A stretch of DNA of 38,820 nt from Gammaproteobacteria bacterium. GTDB taxonomy: Bacteria > Pseudomonadota > Gammaproteobacteria > PS1 > Pseudothioglobaceae. The notes beneath the pieces were generated by a model. The model saw only the letters and a list, made by a program, of their open reading frames with translations. It was not told the DNA's origin and ran no database searches. Both the position numbers and the translations under genes were made by a program. The stretch covers positions 1 through 38,820 of the forward strand of contig VMDI01000060.1 in NCBI GenBank assembly GCA_008080915.1, in the 5' to 3' direction. Shown here piece by piece: positions 10,707 to 20,819 of this stretch; the first letter of the stretch is position 1, and the number at the start of each line of letters is the position of its first letter.

Positions 10707-11878
10707 TGCATAAAACTGAGCGCATCTTCGCTTTAAAAATCTCAACAATTATTGCCACTAGAATGTTGGCATTGTTTTTAATTTTTCCAGTTTTTTCTGT
10801 TTATGCAGAGCAATATATAGATCAAACTCCATATTTAATTGGATTAGCTATTGGTATCTATGGTCTTACTCAAGCAATATTTCAGATACCTTTTGGGTAT
10901 ATGTCTGATCAGGTAGGTAGAAAACCATTAATTTATTTAGGCATTCTTTTATTTCTTCTCGGTAGTGTTATTGCCGCTTTATCAGAGAATATATTCACAG
11001 TTATTATTGGTAGAGCGCTTCAGGGCGGAGGGGCGATTTCTGCAGTACTGATGTCCTTTTTAGCAGACTATGTTAGGCCTGAACAAAGATCAAAAGCCAA
11101 TGCATTTGTTGGTGCTCAAATTGGTTTGGCCTTCATGCTATCCTTAATACTTGGACCAGTTATTGCATCAACTTATGGAATTTCTGGTTTATTCTGGTTT
11201 ATTGGTGGCTTGTCTCTACTTGCACTCGTTATTGCTTCTCAATTACCCCAGGTTTCAACAAAAGCTCAGTATAGCTTGACTTTTTCAAACTTTAAAAAAA
11301 TACTAACCCCAACGCTTATTAGGTTGGATTTAAGCGTATTTGTAATCCATCTAATCTTAACTTGTTCTTTTATAGTCTTACCCCTTCTGCTTGTAGAAAA
11401 TAATATCTTCGACAAGTCATTGCATGGAAACTGGAAAATGTATTTACCAGTAATGATTCTCTCATTTATTGGGATGCTGCCTTTAATCATTTCTGCTGAA
11501 AAATTTAAGAAACATAAACTTGTTCTTATACTAACTATTCTAATATTAATAACTAGTCAGTTCTTGTTCTATACATTAGATTTAACTTTTACAAGCTTCA
11601 TGCTCTTCTTGACATTGTTCTTTGTAGCATTTAATGGCATTGAAGCAATGCTCCCATCTTTATTATCAAGAACCGCAGATCCTGATAAGAGAGGATTGGC
11701 TATGGGTGTATTTTCAACATCACAATTCTTTGGTTCTTTTATTGGGGGTGTTTTTGGTGGATGGATCTATCACAAATATGGAATAAATAGTGTATTCTTG
11801 TTTAATGTATCTGTGGCCATTATTTGGCTCATATTTATGTCTAATCTCAATCTAAATTTTATTAAGGAAAGTAAGTAA
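10703..11878 (+). CDS. MFS transporter, 12-TM (YajR-like)
   Basis: MFS motif [24 protein letters not shown], multiple hydrophobic helices; overlaps bamD by 4 nt and precedes ssb. Confidence 0.85.
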
Positions 11879-12327
11879 TGTCGGGAATAAATAAGGTTAT
11901 CTTGGTAGGAAATATAGGTGCAAAGCCAGAGGTTAAATATTCATCAAATGGATCAGCCATTGCTAATTTGTCAGTTGCAACTTCTGAGACATGGAATGAT
12001 AAAAATAGTGGTGAAAAACAAGAAAAAACTGAATGGCATCGAGTGAGTCTATATGGCAAGCTAGCTGAGATTGCTGGTCAATATCTTGATAGAGGATCAA
12101 AGGTTTATGTCGAGGGTAAATTACAGACTCGTAAATGGCAAGACAAAGATGGTCAAGATAGATACACCACTGAAATTGTTGTTTCAGGATACGGTGGTAC
12201 TCTTCAAATGTTAGATAGAAGAGAAGGCATGGCTACAGGCGGTCAATCAGCTCCATCGAATAATATGAGTAATGATACTGTCGAGGTTGCTGATAATTCT
12301 GGTTTTGAGGACGATATTCCTTTCTAA
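11878..12327 (+). CDS. ssb: Single-stranded DNA-binding protein
   Basis: [39 protein letters not shown]; acidic C-terminal tail DDIPF. Confidence 0.97.
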
Positions 12328-13907
12328 GACAAAATAGACCCTAGTAATTCTTTGGTGTAATCTTCTTTAGGATTCTTGAGCACCTTCGATGTAACACCAG
12401 ACTCAATTACCTCTCCGTCTTTCATTACGATGATTGCATCTGTGAAATATCTAACGATTGACATATCGTGGGTAATCATAATGTAAGAAATCTTTTTCTC
12501 TTTCTGAATCTTTAGGAGTAAATCAAGAATTTGAATTTTTATGGATGCATCCAATGCCGAAGTTGGCTCATCACAAATAATAACATCTGGATTAACGCTA
12601 AGTGCTCTCGCTATTGCACATCTTTGCAACTGTCCACCAGATAACTGATGGGGATATCTGTCCAATAAATCTATATTTAGATCAACTTCTCTCATAAGGG
12701 AATCAACATATTTTTTATTCGATTTAGAAGGGTTTAAAGCCCTAATTCCCTCAATAATAGTTTCATAAATAGTTTTTCTTGGATTAAAACTAGAAGTAAT
12801 GTTTTGAAAAACAATCTGAACATTCTTTGCATATTCGTTCTTTGGAATAGAATCAATGTTATTTTTTGAACCCTGATAAGCAAAAGAAATCTCTCCACTC
12901 GTAATTTTCTGCTGCCTTATTAAGCTCATCGCTGTAGTTGTCTTTCCTGAGCCAGACTCGCCAACTATGGCAATATTTTGGTTTTTGTATAAATCAAAAT
13001 CTAAGTTGTTTACTGCCTTAGTAAAACCCTTTACTCTTCTAAAAATTCCCGATTTAATAGGAAAATGAATACTTAACTCTTTTACTTGCATCAACAAATC
13101 TCCAAATCTCGCTTTTCTGGATTTATTAGGAATAGAGCTAATTAATGATTTTGAGTATTCTTTTTGGGGTTTATTAAAAAAAGCTTTTGATGATTGTTGC
13201 TCAATAATTTCCCCCTGATACATAACACCTACCTTATCTGACATCATTTTCACTACTGATAAGTCATGAGTTATTAGTAAAATTGATAGTTTTTGAGTTT
13301 TCTGGAGATCTTTTAGAAGGTTTAAGATAGTTTTTTGTGTAGTGACATCCAATGCTGTTGTTGGCTCATCAGCAATTATTAATTTCGCATCAGCTGCTAG
13401 CGCAAATGCAATTAATACTCGTTGTTTTTGTCCTCCTGAAATTTGGTGTGGATATCGATTAAGCATCTCATCAGATGAGTCCATCTCAACTTTATTGAAC
13501 GAATCTCTAATTTTTTGAAGCCTTTCACTTTTACCAAGGGATGTGTTAGCTTTGATCACTTCATCAATCTGTTCACCAACAGTCATTACAGGGTTTAAGC
13601 TATTACTTGGATCTTGGAATATGAAGGCAACCTCTGAGCCCCTAAGAGAAGACAATTCGGCTTGATCATAAACTTTTCCGTTGAATATTAAATTCCCTGT
13701 TTGGGTTAATCCCTTAGATAAGAGATCTAGAACTGACAAAGCAGTCAGAGATTTACCTGATCCTGATTCGCCTACTAGGGCAAAAATTTGCCCTTGATTG
13801 ATTTCAAAACTAATATTATTAACCAGTTTTTTCTTTTTTGTTTCAATCGATAAATTTTTAACGCTCAGAAGTGGGTTTTTAGGCATCCTCACCCTCCTTT
13901 GGATCAA
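12324..13907 (-). CDS. yejF: Oligopeptide/microcin C-type ABC transporter, fused dual ATPase (YejF-like)
   Basis: Two ABC domains: [13 protein letters not shown]/LSx[19 protein letters not shown] and [30 protein letters not shown]. Confidence 0.88.
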
Positions 13908-15180
13908 ATACCTGTCTTACCCTATCTGCGAAAAGATTTGCACTCAAAACTAGTCCAAACATGAAGATAAAGCTACTTGCTAAAGGCCACCAAACTATTG
14001 GGTCAGCAGATAACTCTAATCTGGCAGCATTAATCATATTTCCCCAACTCATAGTCGTTGCATCAACACCAACCCCTATGTAGGACAGGATAGCTTCAAT
14101 AAGAACCAGGCCTGAGAAATCCAAAACAATTGATATAAGCACTAAATGCATAACATTTGGCATCAAGTGACCAAATAATATCTTTAAATTTGCCACGCCA
14201 AAGACTTTTGCTGCCTTAACATACTCTAACTCTGATAATTTAAGGGTTTCAGCCCTAATTAGTCTGCAAAGGCCTGTCCAAGAGGTCAAAGCCAAAATAA
14301 CACAAAGCAAAAGCAACTTAAGATCTGATCTTTCTAGACTGGATGCATAATTTTGCGCGTTTTCATCCATATAAACTTGCAAAATCAGTACCAGTGCAGC
14401 AATTAACAAAATGCCAGGAATCGCATTGATGGTGGTATAAACATATTGAATAATATCGTCTACCCTGCCCTTATAATAACCCGCCATTAATCCAAGAATA
14501 ATGGCTGGTGGAAGTGCCATTAAAGTGGTCAACAGACCAAAAATCATTCCAGTTCTAATGCTTTTTACTGCTTTGTAGAAAACATCTGTTCCAGCTTTGT
14601 CAGTGCCAAGAATATGGTATTCAGGCAAGGTGTTAATCACCCATATTAGTAAGAAAACTATCGAGAAGATTGTCCAAAGAACAGGCTTATTGCTAAATAG
14701 TGGTCTAGAAGAGACTAACCAGTATATTGGAATAAATAGAATTATGGCAACAAGCAAACTCCATGCTGTAGTTGTCAAAATATATTGGATATTTTCACTT
14801 TGGCTGTTAATTTCATCAGGGGTATGTTTAAGATTAACAAACCCCCTCAGTCCATTGTCCAGATACTCTTTTGAGAATTGTTGATAGTTTAAGGGTGTTG
14901 AGTAGGTTTTTTCCTCACTTTCAATAACGGGCATTAAGGCAAAATCTAAAAGACTATAAACCTCAGATGTTTTCGAGTCCCTTAGATGAATTGAGTCAGA
15001 TAAACCTATAAAAATATAAAAAACAAATATGATGAATGACGAGAGTGCAATGGGTCTAGAAAAAATACTGATCCATTTCCTACTCAAACTTTCAGATTTT
15101 TTAATCTTATAAACAGCGAATATCGACAAAAGTGTCAAGACCCATAAGGCAATATCCGTCCAAAGCCAAACAATACTCAT
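13879..15180 (-). CDS. yejE: Oligopeptide-type ABC transporter permease (YejE/OppC-like)
   Basis: HILGTDKAGTDVFYKAVKSIRTGMIFGLLTTL ... BPD_transp_1; LIEAILSYIGVGVDATTMSWGNMI. Confidence 0.85.
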   Translation of the reverse strand: MSIVWLWTDIALWVLTLLSIFAVYKIKKSESLSRKWISIFSRPIALSSFIIFVFYIFIGLSDSIHLRDSKTSEVYSLLDFALMPVIESEEKTYSTPLNYQQFSKEYLDNGLRGFVNLKHTPDEINSQSENIQYILTTTAWSLLVAIILFIPIYWLVSSRPLFSNKPVLWTIFSIVFLLIWVINTLPEYHILGTDKAGTDVFYKAVKSIRTGMIFGLLTTLMALPPAIILGLMAGYYKGRVDDIIQYVYTTINAIPGILLIAALVLILQVYMDENAQNYASSLERSDLKLLLLCVILALTSWTGLCRLIRAETLKLSELEYVKAAKVFGVANLKILFGHLMPNVMHLVLISIVLDFSGLVLIEAILSYIGVGVDATTMSWGNMINAARLELSADPIVWWPLASSFIFMFGLVLSANLFADRVRQVFDPKEGEDA

Positions 15181-16154
15181 TTAAATTTCACCCGAGGATC
15201 TACAAATGTATAGGAAATATCGGTTAGCAATAATCCAATGATGTATAGAACAGAACCCAAAAACACCATTGCTCTAACAATTGCAAAATCTTGAGCATTG
15301 ATTGCGTCAATTGTGTAGCTTCCAAGACCTGGGATTGAGAAGAAACTTTCCATAATTAAACTCCCCATGAAAAGAGTTGGAATTACCACGACCACACCTG
15401 TGAGGATGGGAATCATTGCGTTTTTAAGTACGTGTTTAAATAAGACCCTATTCTCGCTAAGACCCTTTGCTCTAGCAGTATTAACATAGGGTTTATTGAT
15501 TTCTTCAAGGAAAATCGATCGATACCATCTTACCCCTGCTCCAAGACCTGCAATTACACCAATAATAATAGGAAGGGTGACAAATCTCCACGATTCTATC
15601 CCATCGATGTAACCCGATACAGGAAACCAATTCCACAATCCAGCCACTATTTTTTGACCAAGAATAATGTAAAAAAGTCCTGATATAGACATCAAGGCAA
15701 CTGAAAACACCAACGCAAATCTCTCGAGTTTCGATCCTAGAATCATCACCATCCATACCGCAAAAATAATGTTAGTTAATAATGCAAATATAAAACTAGG
15801 GATAGCCAAAGCCAAAGAGGGCCACATTCTTTGTTGAATATCTTCATTGATATTTCTTCCAGAGTCTGATTGACCAAAGTCAAGTTGAAAAAGTGGAGCA
15901 GATTTTTGATAGAAGATAGTATCAGTGAGTTTCTCCATACCTGATACTGATTCATTGAAGAATAAAGGCTTGTTATAGCCCTTTTGCTCTTTCCAAGAGT
16001 TAATGTCTGCTTGGGTCACATATTTAGTCCCAAGCTGAACTCTTGCCATATCGTCAGGAGTATTTACAATAAAGAATAAAACAAAGGTGATGAAATTAAC
16101 ACCAATCAGTATAGGAATACTATAGAAAATACGTCTGGTTATATATGACCACAT
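15177..16154 (-). CDS. yejB: Oligopeptide-type ABC transporter permease (YejB/DppB-like)
   Basis: MWSYITRRIFYSIPILIGVNFITFVLFF; YVNTARAKGLSENRVLFKHVLKNAMIPILT; YTFVDPRVKFK. Confidence 0.87.
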   Translation of the reverse strand: MWSYITRRIFYSIPILIGVNFITFVLFFIVNTPDDMARVQLGTKYVTQADINSWKEQKGYNKPLFFNESVSGMEKLTDTIFYQKSAPLFQLDFGQSDSGRNINEDIQQRMWPSLALAIPSFIFALLTNIIFAVWMVMILGSKLERFALVFSVALMSISGLFYIILGQKIVAGLWNWFPVSGYIDGIESWRFVTLPIIIGVIAGLGAGVRWYRSIFLEEINKPYVNTARAKGLSENRVLFKHVLKNAMIPILTGVVVVIPTLFMGSLIMESFFSIPGLGSYTIDAINAQDFAIVRAMVFLGSVLYIIGLLLTDISYTFVDPRVKFK

Positions 16155-16157
16155 AAT

Positions 16158-16183
16158 AAAAAAGCCAGCATTAAGCTGGCTTT
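16158..16183 (-). terminator. Intrinsic terminator of the downstream Asn/Tyr-rich gene (minus strand), ending 3 nt before the yejB ATG
   Basis: AAAGCCAGC (16161-16169) ATTAA GCTGGCTTT (16175-16183); minus strand reads GCTGGCTTTTTT then ATTATG. Confidence 0.8.
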
Positions 16184-16205: not shown

Positions 16206-16628
16206 TTACTTAGTAGTTTTAGCAGGTGTATTTGCCTTTGTTGAAACAGGTTTGTTGTAACCATTATTTCTCCAAGTGCTTCTATTCCATGGTCCATTGT
16301 GATTACCCCATGGTGTATTACCCCAGGAGTTATTATTCATTGGATTCATCCAGTTGTTGTTATATCGGTTTGGGCCATAGTATCTCTGACCATAATATCT
16401 CGGTCCATAGTTTCCTCTTGGGCCATAGTAATTATTACCTCCATCGAACTCATCAAACATATTCTCCATCTCCTCAGAGAACCAATTTGGAGTAAAAAAG
16501 CTGTATGGATTGTAACCAAAGAAGCCATTGTCTTTATAGCCATTGTAGCCGTTATAACCATTATTATTAAAAAAAGCATTGGTGCTTAAAGAGGCTGCTA
16601 TGGCAGCAATTGCGATCATTTTCTTCAT
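16206..16628 (-). CDS. Small secreted Asn/Gly/Tyr/Trp-rich low-complexity protein, sulfur-globule-protein-like (paralog 1)
   Basis: Signal peptide MKKMIAIAAIAASLSTNA/FF; composition N/Y/G/W/P rich; EEMENMFDEFDGGNN core. Start at 16628 preferred over 16634 for SD GGAG spacing. Confidence 0.75.
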   Translation of the reverse strand: MKKMIAIAAIAASLSTNAFFNNNGYNGYNGYKDNGFFGYNPYSFFTPNWFSEEMENMFDEFDGGNNYYGPRGNYGPRYYGQRYYGPNRYNNNWMNPMNNNSWGNTPWGNHNGPWNRSTWRNNGYNKPVSTKANTPAKTTK

Positions 16629-16676
16629 AAACATTTACTCCTTTTTAAAAAATATTTATTATAAATTAGTCGAAAA

Positions 16677-16704
16677 AAAAAGGACCAGAAAACTGGTCCT
16701 TTTT
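16677..16704 (-). terminator. Intrinsic terminator of the upstream Asn/Tyr-rich gene (minus strand)
   Basis: AAAAAGGACCAG (16677-16688) AAAA CTGGTCCTTTTT (16693-16704); followed on the minus strand by a T-tract. Confidence 0.85.
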
Positions 16705-16725
16705 AATCATAATTAGAGTGTCTAA

Positions 16726-17055
16726 TTACTTAGCAGCAGCTGGCTTAGCAACAGTCTTTGGAGCTGTGTAAGCGTTTGCCGCTGGAGCATTATAGTATGG
16801 GTTACCATAGTAGTATGGATTGTAACCATAGCCATTGTTATAGTTATTACCACCAAAGTTACCGAAATCATCCATCATGTTTGACATCTCTTCAACGTAC
16901 CAACGTGGATCGATGAAAGCATCATATGGGTTGTAACCAAAGATACCATTGTCTTCATAACCATAACCGTTGTAACCATTGTTATTCCAGTTATTGAAAA
17001 AAGCGTTAGAGCTTAAAGAAGCTGCTAAAGCAACGATTGCAATAATTTTTTTCAT
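16726..17055 (-). CDS. Small secreted Asn/Gly/Tyr-rich low-complexity protein, sulfur-globule-protein-like (paralog 2)
   Basis: MKKIIAIVALAASLSSNA/FFNNWNNNGYNGYGYEDNGIFGYNPYDAF...; start at 17055 preferred (SD GGAGAA, 10 nt spacing) over the ORF-track start at 17070. Confidence 0.77.
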   Translation of the reverse strand: MKKIIAIVALAASLSSNAFFNNWNNNGYNGYGYEDNGIFGYNPYDAFIDPRWYVEEMSNMMDDFGNFGGNNYNNGYGYNPYYYGNPYYNAPAANAYTAPKTVAKPAAAK

Positions 17056-17168: not shown

Positions 17169-20100
17169 ATGTCCATAAAAGACCAGTTAATTTCACTACT
17201 CGATAGCAAAATATTGCTCCTTGATGGCGCAATGGGGACTATGATTCAAAAACATAAGCTCCAAGAAGAAGACTATCGTGGGGAGCGCTTCAAAGATTGG
17301 GATTCACCCCTCAAAGGCAATAATGACCTATTGTCTTTAACGCAACCAGAAATAATTTCTGATATTCATCGTGCCTACCTAGCTGCTGGAAGCGACATTA
17401 TTGAAACCAATACCTTTAATGCGACTAAAGTCTCAATGGCTGATTACAACATGCAAGACTTGGCATATGAGATTAATGTTGAGAGTGCAAGGCTTGCAAA
17501 AAATGTGGTCAATGAATTTCAGTCTGAAGATAAGCCCAGATATGTTGCTGGAGTTTTAGGTCCTACCTCACGAACATGTTCACTTTCTCCGGATGTGAAT
17601 GATCCAGGTGCAAGAAATGTGACATTTGACGAGTTAGTGGATGTCTACAGTGAGTCAACTCGTGGTTTGATTGAGGGTGGAGCAGATATTATCCTAATTG
17701 AGACCATATTTGATACGCTAAATGCTAAAGCGGCTATTTTTGCTGTCATGAGTGTATTTGAAAATGACTCCATAGACTTGCCCATCATGATTTCGGGAAC
17801 CATTACTGATGCCTCAGGACGAACACTCTCGGGTCAAATGACCGAGGCCTTTTATAATTCATTGATTCATGCAAATCCAATCTCTATTGGTCTTAATTGT
17901 GCACTGGGCCCTGATCTACTTCGTCCTTACGTCGAAGAAATGTCTAGGATATCTTCAGCATATGTCTCTGCACATCCTAATGCAGGATTGCCAAATGAAT
18001 TTGGGGAGTATGACTTAATTGCAAAGGATATGTCTTCTCATGTCAAAGAGTGGGCTGAATCAGGATTTATCAATATTGTTGGTGGTTGCTGTGGCTCAAC
18101 ACCTGAGCATATCTCGGCAATTTATGATTCTGTTAAAGAAATTGCACCTAGACGTTTGCCTGAAATTGAAAAACAGTCTCGACTCTCAGGACTAGAAGCT
18201 TTTAATATCGGTAAAGACTCAAGATTTATCAATATTGGCGAAAGAGCCAATGTTACCGGTTCTGCTAAATTTAAGCGTCTCATACTCAATGAAGAGTTCG
18301 ATGAAGCAATCGATATTTGTCGAACCCAGGTTGAAGAAGGTGCTCAAATGATTGATATCAACATGGATGAGGGTATGTTAGACGGCAAGGAGGCTATGAT
18401 TCGATTCCTGAATCTAATTGCTGCTGAGCCGGATATCTCTAGAGTGCCTTTTGTGATTGACTCATCTAAATGGGAAATTATTGAGGCTGGACTTAAGTGC
18501 ATTCAAGGTAAATCCATTGTCAATTCTTTATCGCTCAAAGAAGGCGAAGAAAAATTTATACGTGAGGCTAAGCTTTGCAAGAAATATGGTGCTGCAATTA
18601 TTGTCATGGCATTCGATGAAGACGGTCAAGCAGATAGCAAAGATAGGAAAGTTGAGATATCTACTAGGGCCTATAAGATTCTAACCGAACAGGTTAAATT
18701 TCCACCTGAAGATATCATTTTTGATCCAAATATCTTTGCTGTAGCAACTGGCATTGAGGAGCATAATAATTACGCGGTAGATTTTATTGAGGCTTCTCGT
18801 GAAATCACTTCCACCCTTCCCTATGCAAAAATATCTGGTGGTGTTTCTAATGTCTCTTTCTCATTTAGAGGCAATAACCCAGTCAGAGAAGCCATTCATT
18901 CTGTCTTTTTATATCATGCTATTAAGGCTGGTATGACCATGGGAATTGTCAACGCTGGTCAGCTGGTAGTCTATGATGAAATTGACCCTGAATTAAAAAA
19001 GGCTGTTGAAGATGTCATTCTTAATTCAGACGAAGGAGCTGCAGACCGATTGATTGAAATTGCTCCGAAATTTTCTGAACAAGGAGAGATTAAAGACAAT
19101 AAGAAAGATCTTGAATGGAGAACATGGTCTGTTGAAAAACGTCTTGAACATTCCCTTGTTAAAGGCATTAATGAATTTATTAATGAAGACACTCAAGAGG
19201 CCCTAGATAAGCTTGGAAGGCCAATTAGCGTCATTGAAGGTCCTTTGATGGATGGTATGAATACTGTTGGGGATTTATTTGGTGAAGGCAAGATGTTTCT
19301 TCCGCAGGTGGTCAAATCTGCCAGAGTAATGAAGCAATCAGTGGCGTATTTAGATCCTTATCTCCAAGCGGAAAAAGTAGATGGTGCTTCTGATAGCCAA
19401 GGAAAAATTCTAATGGCAACGGTCAAAGGTGATGTGCATGATATTGGAAAAAATATTGTTGGGGTAGTCTTGTCATGTAATAACTTCGAGGTTATTGACC
19501 TTGGTGTCATGGTACCTGCTGAGAGAATTCTTGAGGTAGCTAGAGAAGAGAATGTCGATATTATTGGCCTCTCAGGTCTAATTACGCCATCACTTGATGA
19601 GATGGTACATGTCGCCAAAGAAATGAAACGCCTGGAATTTAATGTTCCGCTTTTGATCGGCGGTGCAACGACATCAAAAGCTCATACCGCAATTAAAATT
19701 TCACCAGAATATGACCAAGTTTTTTATGTCCAGGACGCATCAAAGTCAGTAGGTGTTGCAACTACTTTACTGTCCAAAGATCTTAAAAATAAGTTTATTG
19801 TTGATACTCATAAAGATTATGAAGAGGTGAGAGAAAGAAGAGCCAGTAAAGGTGCTACACGTCTTCTTAGTCTAGATAAAGCGAGATCAAATAAACCTAT
19901 CGTTTCGTTTGAGGATATTCAAAAACCAAACTTTATCGGGATTAAAGTTTTCGAAAATTATGATCTCAATGAGATTTATCAGTTTATTGACTGGACTCCA
20001 TTTTTTAGAACTTGGGATCTCCATGGAAAATACCCTGAGATTCTTGATGATTCAGTGGTCGGTGAAACTGCCTCGAAGCTTTATGATGATGCTAAAAAAA

Positions 20101-20819
20101 TGTTTCAGAAAGTTATTAATCAAAAACTCCTTACAGCAAGCGCTGTCATAGGTATTTTTAAAGCAAATAGCTTTAATGAAGATATTTTTGTCTATGATGA
20201 AAATAACCAACATATTGAAACACTGAATCATTTAAGACAGCAACTAGACAAAGGAGGTAATTCTCCGAATTTTTGTCTGAGCGACTTTATTGCCCCTATT
20301 GACTCAAAAATTGAGGATTACATGGGTGCATTTGCAGTTACAGCTGGCGGGAATATTGATCAGCTGATTTCTCAATATGAAAATGAGAATGATGACTACA
20401 ACTCAATTATGATCAAGGCGGTAGCAGATAGATTTGCAGAAGCCTTTGCAGAACTTATGCATTATCGATTCAGGACTGAGTTTTGGGGTTATAGTGATGA
20501 ATCTTTTGACAATGATCAGTTCATTAAAGAGAAATATATCGGTATCAGACCTGCACCAGGTTATCCAGCATGTCCAGAACACAGTGAAAAAGAAAAATTA
20601 TGGTCCCTTCTTGATGTTGAGAAAAATATTGGCATGACCTTAACCTCTTCTTTTGCTATGCTGCCTGCCTCATCTGTCAGTGGATGGTATTTCGCCAATA
20701 AAGCCAGTAGATATTTTGGAGTAGCAAAAATCAATGAAGAACAACTGAAGGATTATGCAACTCGTAAAAAAATCTCTCTGGATCTTGCCCAACGATATTT
20801 ATCCCCGAATTTAGATTAA
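17169..20819 (+). CDS. metH: Cobalamin-dependent methionine synthase
   Basis: All modules present: Hcy-binding ([22 protein letters not shown]), pterin-binding ([14 protein letters not shown]), B12-binding ([15 protein letters not shown]), activation domain ([15 protein letters not shown]). Confidence 0.97.

Follow-up and report, generated by a model that had tools for sequence, protein, structure and literature searches.

Sulfur-globule proteins (Sgp) have been recognized mainly through their composition and in a small number of cultured bacteria. In Allochromatium vinosum, SgpA, SgpB and SgpC are small, exported paralogues that form the envelope of periplasmic sulfur globules on an rDsr background; the Allochromatium Sgp are described as extremely hydrophobic, and SgpD as possibly coiled-coil (PMC10386293). 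In Candidatus Thioglobus autotrophicus EF1, four putative sgp genes have been reported, periplasmic sulfur globules have been imaged and three Sgp proteins have been detected by proteomics (PMC6509183). On the viral side, the sulfur auxiliary genes dsrA, dsrC/tusE, soxYZ and soxC/D have been reported in phages (PMC8190135, PMC4164917), with TusA, NifU and IscA noted beside phage dsrA and dsrC (PMC8190135).

The window analyzed here, a stretch of 38,820 nucleotides, belongs to a SUP05-type genome of the family Thioglobaceae, which includes Vesicomyosocius and the thiotrophic symbionts of Bathymodiolus; the closest records by sequence come from this symbiont group and from related uncultured bacteria. 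As originally predicted, the window contains a tandem pair of genes for secreted Asn/Gly/Tyr-rich proteins, both on the minus strand (Table 1). We estimate at about 0.8 the probability that the products of these two genes are structural components of the envelope around periplasmic sulfur globules, in a sulfur oxidizer of this type. Either start is preceded, at a distance of ~8-9 nt, by GGAG or AGGAG, which resembles a ribosome-binding site, and position 17055 is favored over 17070 as the start of the type-B gene because GGAG lies ~8 nt upstream of it. Downstream of each gene lies a hairpin with T runs; the one beyond the type-C gene was also scored by the hairpin scan, and the stem 3' of the type-B gene, which was read by eye and is absent from the output of the scan, likely represents a two-way intrinsic terminator, judging from its sequence.

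Table 1. Coordinates of the two sulfur-globule-like genes, their surroundings and selected genes in other genomes and phages
Feature	Sequence	Positions	Strand	Basis or remark
Type-B sulfur-globule-like protein gene (P0002, 109 aa)	window	16726..17055 (coding 16729-17055, stop 16726-16728)	minus	ORF reading
Type-C sulfur-globule-like protein gene (P0001, 140 aa)	window	16206..16628 (coding 16209-16628, stop 16206-16208)	minus	ORF reading
GC stem with A and T runs on either side, AAAAAGGACCAG-AAAA-CTGGTCCTTTTT	window	16677..16704		by eye
Intrinsic terminator-like hairpin 3' of type-C gene	window	16161..16183	scores on both	hairpin scan
metH-like gene	window	17169..20819	plus	divergent neighbor, marker of the conserved locus
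ssb	window	11878..12327	plus	second conserved neighbor of the locus
opp-like ABC transporter genes	window	12324-16154	minus	between ssb and the sgp-like genes
Type-C gene of genome G075	L034	1929-2288		
Small exported protein upstream of a homolog	L094	7641-7970		phage contig
Recurring exported protein, ~285-305 aa	L087; L086; L100; L107; L131	6980-7843; 9426-10343; 6740-7588; 9706-10578; 4584-5441		phage contigs
Ammonium transporter genes	L084; L089; L090; L092	2163-3335; 8894-10057; 6412-7575; 6431-7594		phage contigs
Further exported Asn/Gly-rich protein	L107	10758-11168		phage contig

Both proteins start with what is, by inspection, a Sec-type signal peptide, consisting of MKK and a hydrophobic stretch that ends in S(S/T)NA-FFNN, in agreement with the near-identity of these segments claimed at the outset. 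In the type-B protein, the signal peptide is followed by the core DNGIFGYNPYD..DPRWYVEEMSNMMDDF and an N/G/Y-rich tail, and in the type-C protein, by the core DNGFFGYNPYS.FTPNWFSEEMENMFDEF and a long tail rich in N/G/Y/P/W. The common form of the core, ..DNG.FGYNPY..F..P.W..EEM.NM.D.F, had been read correctly, and the alignment identifies it as the part that is kept in all relatives. The anticipated compositional bias amounts to 57-60% N/G/Y/W/F in the mature parts, with zero cysteines, and the proposed Lys/Ala/Thr-rich C-terminus exists in a weak form and is variable across the family. The mature parts of the two proteins are 62% identical over 68 residues and align with 86.3 bits, compared to 37.0 bits for the best of 200 shuffles, so that the likeness cannot be ascribed to compositional chance and, on this sequence evidence, the two proteins are paralogs. 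The idea that low-complexity ORFs look alike only through AT-rich codons and similar signal peptides would suit an AT-rich genome (GC 0.36) and the highly variable length of the Asn-rich tails, but is refuted by the shuffle controls and the conserved core and is at odds with the conservation of the locus in many genera, which leaves it with next to no credibility. The tail of the type-C protein aligns with the type-C proteins of free-living relatives; the core tree does not resolve its placement.

The search against the Pfam model of sulfur globule proteins that had been suggested as a check turned out negative: neither of the two proteins matches PF17228 (SGP) at E<=10, and PF17228 is not among the Pfam families matched by any of 28 host members of the family, even at E<=10. 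The two proteins have no match in NCBIfam either; Pfam and NCBIfam matches to porins, the prion octarepeat and keratin were discarded as composition or signal-peptide noise, and PF14771, tried in the same genome as a first guess, was uninformative. Searches of GenBank phages, plasmids and the PDB retrieved no homologs, although low-complexity masking in BLAST might hide matches. An AlphaFold2 model built from 17 rows (pLDDT 52, pTM 0.18) has helices only at the signal peptide (residues 4-19) and the core (residues 50-65); with these values, the model is too poor for a fold search, and it suggests, at low confidence, a short helix in the core.

The window genome (984 kb, 86% complete) encodes DsrA (494.8 bits) and SoxB (705 bits), both above the cut-off, so that the sulfur oxidation pathway on which the original prediction had been made dependent is present. 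No soxC above the cut-off was found in any of the 83 genomes of the family, including the window genome, where 86% completeness makes the absence less than absolute. Several of the features that define Sgp functionally are found here, namely, the Sox system without SoxCD along with reverse Dsr; small proteins with a signal peptide and a low-complexity Gly/Asn/Tyr-rich sequence; and several paralogs per genome, with two in the window genome and up to four in the arrays of its relatives.

A profile search identified the family in 48 of the 83 Thioglobaceae genomes but in none of the 29 genomes of genus g5 and not in the only genome of genus g2. In both genera, no DsrA comes close to the cut-off, and SoxB either is missing or scores no better than distant relatives do (<=116 bits, with the cut-off at 550). 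Overall, dsrA is present in 45 of the 48 genomes with the family versus 4 of the 35 without it, a correlation that is strong as a match of traits but weak if taken as a tally of independent events because the negatives come mostly from one genus; being phylogenetically clumped, it stems for the most part from one or two events at clade level (the absence in g5 and g2). The four dsrA-bearing genomes without a family match (G049, G051, G054 and G080) are all unclosed assemblies. This distribution bears on the possibility that the proteins are structural components of another extracytoplasmic assembly (an S-layer accessory, adhesin, matrix or outer-membrane-associated structure) kept by chance in chemolithotrophic lineages. 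Export and composition are all that is directly visible, and SUP05 cells do possess an S-layer (PMC6509183); still, the absence of the family from g5, a genus with neither dsrA nor true soxB, the ~34 kDa size of the EF1 S-layer protein, far above that of products of 109 and 140 aa, and the phage homologs located beside dsrA, dsrC and tusA, which would be unexpected for a surface role, render such an assembly unlikely.

In free-living and clam-symbiont relatives, the metH locus harbors an array of four low-complexity genes, all exported by inspection: type A (motif ..WPIWTPM.WMEK..), type B, typified by P0002, type C (..TPDWFSEEM..), which resembles the tail of P0001, and type D (NWNSN.PMNFG.. 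..PWNYGYN). In G062, a genome of 1.5 Mb on a single contig, there are exactly four such genes, two of them from the window family. Type A occurs in 27 of the 83 genomes; the window genome displays types B and C, and no type A was detected in it. Beyond the signal peptide, type A shows no supported homology to types B and C (score 17, compared with <=15.5 for shuffled columns), and types A and D appear, from their sequences, to be neighbors of a similar kind for which homology to B/C is unsupported. The type-C gene of the genome G075 extends into unread bases of its assembly.

The sgp-like gene also adjoins metH in Vesicomyosocius and the Bathymodiolus symbionts, and in the loci L002-L005, the homolog is flanked by metH on one side and ssb on the other; another homolog (L001) has different neighbors. 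The Opp-type ABC transporter genes are missing from L002-L005, where ssb is located near the sgp-like gene. The bacterial genes thus sit at metH/ssb and not next to sulfur genes, which counts against the globule reading.

Among 370 genomes of the class that were scanned, 14 matches, several of them weak, were detected outside the family; dsrA is present in 12 of these 14 genomes versus 107 of the 351 non-matching ones, and most dsrA-bearing Gammaproteobacteria have no family member. In the other gammaproteobacterial families, the common core NPYDEWDPRYWMEEM is followed by Gly/Tyr-rich tails of the GGYGNPYGG type (GGYGGNPYGGGYGNPY..). With the signal peptides removed, the core matches these members with an hhalign score of 66.7 versus <=16.7 for shuffled columns, a value somewhat favored by the fact that the rows compared had been found with the profile itself. 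The alignment suggests that the core is the conserved element and that lineages differ in tail composition. In one of these families, f86, the homolog lies near a gene that, by eye, encodes an RND/HAE-type exporter (L048, L050, L051 and L053). Allochromatium sgpD has been described as adjoining the gene of a hydrophobic/amphiphilic exporter (PMC10386293).

Homologs are also encoded by phages. A profile scan of IMG/VR yielded 20 loci, and a further scan that used the viral rows yielded 42 contigs (L080-L119, L070 and L078) with 19 distinct proteins, some of the records being near-copies of each other. The viral proteins keep the signal peptide and the core (profile score 128.5 versus <=18.8 after shuffling) but, with a shortened tail, are smaller overall (median length 96 aa versus 112-143); in two viral lineages (L060 and L074), the core is doubled. 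The contigs carry a phage primase-helicase, DNA polymerase, topoisomerase II, exonucleases, DNA ligases, NrdA and a weak match to a neck protein; in the first 20 loci, no further ORF matches proteins of the host locus. As a phage marker, phrog_2 was rejected as unspecific since it matches 11 of 14 control genomes. In a tree of low resolution built from 77 columns, the viral rows group with the type-B proteins of free-living genera (95/98) and form one group in 74% of the bootstrap trees; this placement makes a host origin of the phage copies likely. Type-A proteins have no viral relatives.

The setting of the viral genes is that of auxiliary metabolic genes, with phage genes rather than bacterial flanks around them and links to other sulfur genes. 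Pfam searches of neighboring genes identified TusA and DsrC along with two sulfite-reductase (DsrA-like) proteins, a NifU/IscU protein and an ammonium transporter. The gene order is sgp-tusA-dsrC in L080 and L086, sgp-dsrA-dsrA-iscU-iscA-tusA-dsrC in L087 and sgp-X-dsrC in L106 and L107; a DsrC above the cut-off is present in 14 of the 42 viral records. These neighborhoods tie the family to sulfur oxidation independently of the bacterial distribution and, together with the dsrA and soxB of the window genome and the co-occurrence with dsrA, support the structural role in sulfur globules that had been proposed from the sequence. They could also be taken to indicate that the proteins are soluble periplasmic binders or dispersants of polysulfide or zero-valent sulfur, in the manner of a sulfur-transfer chaperone, given that TusA and DsrC are sulfur carriers and that the phage forms retain the core while shortening the tail. 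However, the long low-complexity tails and several paralogs per genome suit a coat better, and there is no cysteine for persulfide chemistry, so we regard a soluble binder as quite improbable.

Several other phage proteins were observed near these genes. Directly upstream of the homolog in L094, there is a second small exported protein (GRGRG..DAEGNFSMTINASG) that, along with six relatives on other phage contigs (L124-L136), weakly matches PF17228 (best E 2.2e-4; one of these proteins scores 18.8 bits, with a cut-off of 26.7); on L136, dsrC lies close by. A recurring exported protein (..SG.YEGTFT.G..ATYAQDLDL.LVGS..), porin-like by eye, is encoded near the sgp-like genes and has no Pfam match in the two members scanned. 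Ammonium transporter genes lie near the sgp-like gene in four contigs, and L107 encodes a further protein with WGPF repeats ~2.5 kb from its sgp-like gene.

Under the sulfur-globule reading, both proteins would leave the cytoplasm through Sec; the conserved core (NPY..W.P.W..EEM..M.D.F) with its putative short helix would pack or oligomerize, and the disordered, cysteine-free tail, aromatic and Asn/Gly-rich, may cover the hydrophobic sulfur surface. Zero-valent sulfur produced by Sox without SoxCD would be stored in the coated globule, from which the carriers TusA and DsrC could pass it to reverse Dsr. Paralogs with different tails (A-D in the relatives, B and C here) might form a mixed coat, like SgpA-D in Allochromatium. 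T4-like phages, with short-tailed versions beside their own dsrC, tusA and dsrA, would probably change how far the stored sulfur can be accessed in the course of infection. The proximity of the phage copies to virus-borne sulfur-oxidation genes suggests that viruses interfere with the sulfur store of the host, and we lean slightly towards the more specific proposition that T4-like SUP05 phages encode a sulfur-globule protein of their own within a tusA/dsrC/dsrA cassette and remodel or open the host store to fuel replication. If so, this would be an auxiliary gene that acts on a storage inclusion instead of an enzymatic step.

The phage contigs are of the same kind as those described previously, that is, marine contigs with DsrC/TusA/NifU/IscA neighborhoods and SUP05-type hosts; the earlier studies list enzymes and carriers among the phage genes and name no globule protein (PMC8190135, PMC4164917). 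In the open-licence literature, we found no paper that joins a sulfur globule protein, a virus and an auxiliary metabolic gene; an earlier mention elsewhere is possible. The phage copies beside dsrA, dsrC and tusA make it testable whether viruses control the sulfur stored by marine chemolithotrophs; the open-licence models of viral sulfur cycling that we consulted do not include such a step.

Compared by description only, the window proteins are like SgpA-C of Allochromatium in size, export, number of paralogs and rDsr background but, unlike those extremely hydrophobic proteins, possess Asn-rich tails and the EEM..M.D.F core (PMC10386293). PF17228 carries the same named role, yet matches to this model are absent from the window family; in one phage lineage, a protein resembling PF17228, albeit with weak matches to the model, directly adjoins a homolog from the window family. 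The closest counterpart is Ca. T. autotrophicus EF1, from the same clade, where four paralogous sgp genes (PMC6509183) compare with the four-gene array of G062 and with types B and C in the window genome. The match of four genes is suggestive, and the EF1 genes, known here by description, are likely identical with types A-D. The surmise that the two proteins represent a new Sgp family thus holds inasmuch as the family is absent from Pfam and NCBIfam but not with respect to SUP05 bacteria, where sulfur-globule proteins were already known (PMC6509183). What the present analysis adds to the described systems is a defined core with its distribution, the lack of a match to PF17228 and the occurrence in phages; the core makes sulfur-globule proteins findable in the widespread, uncultured SUP05 clade, in the animal symbionts belonging to it and in other sulfur oxidizers.
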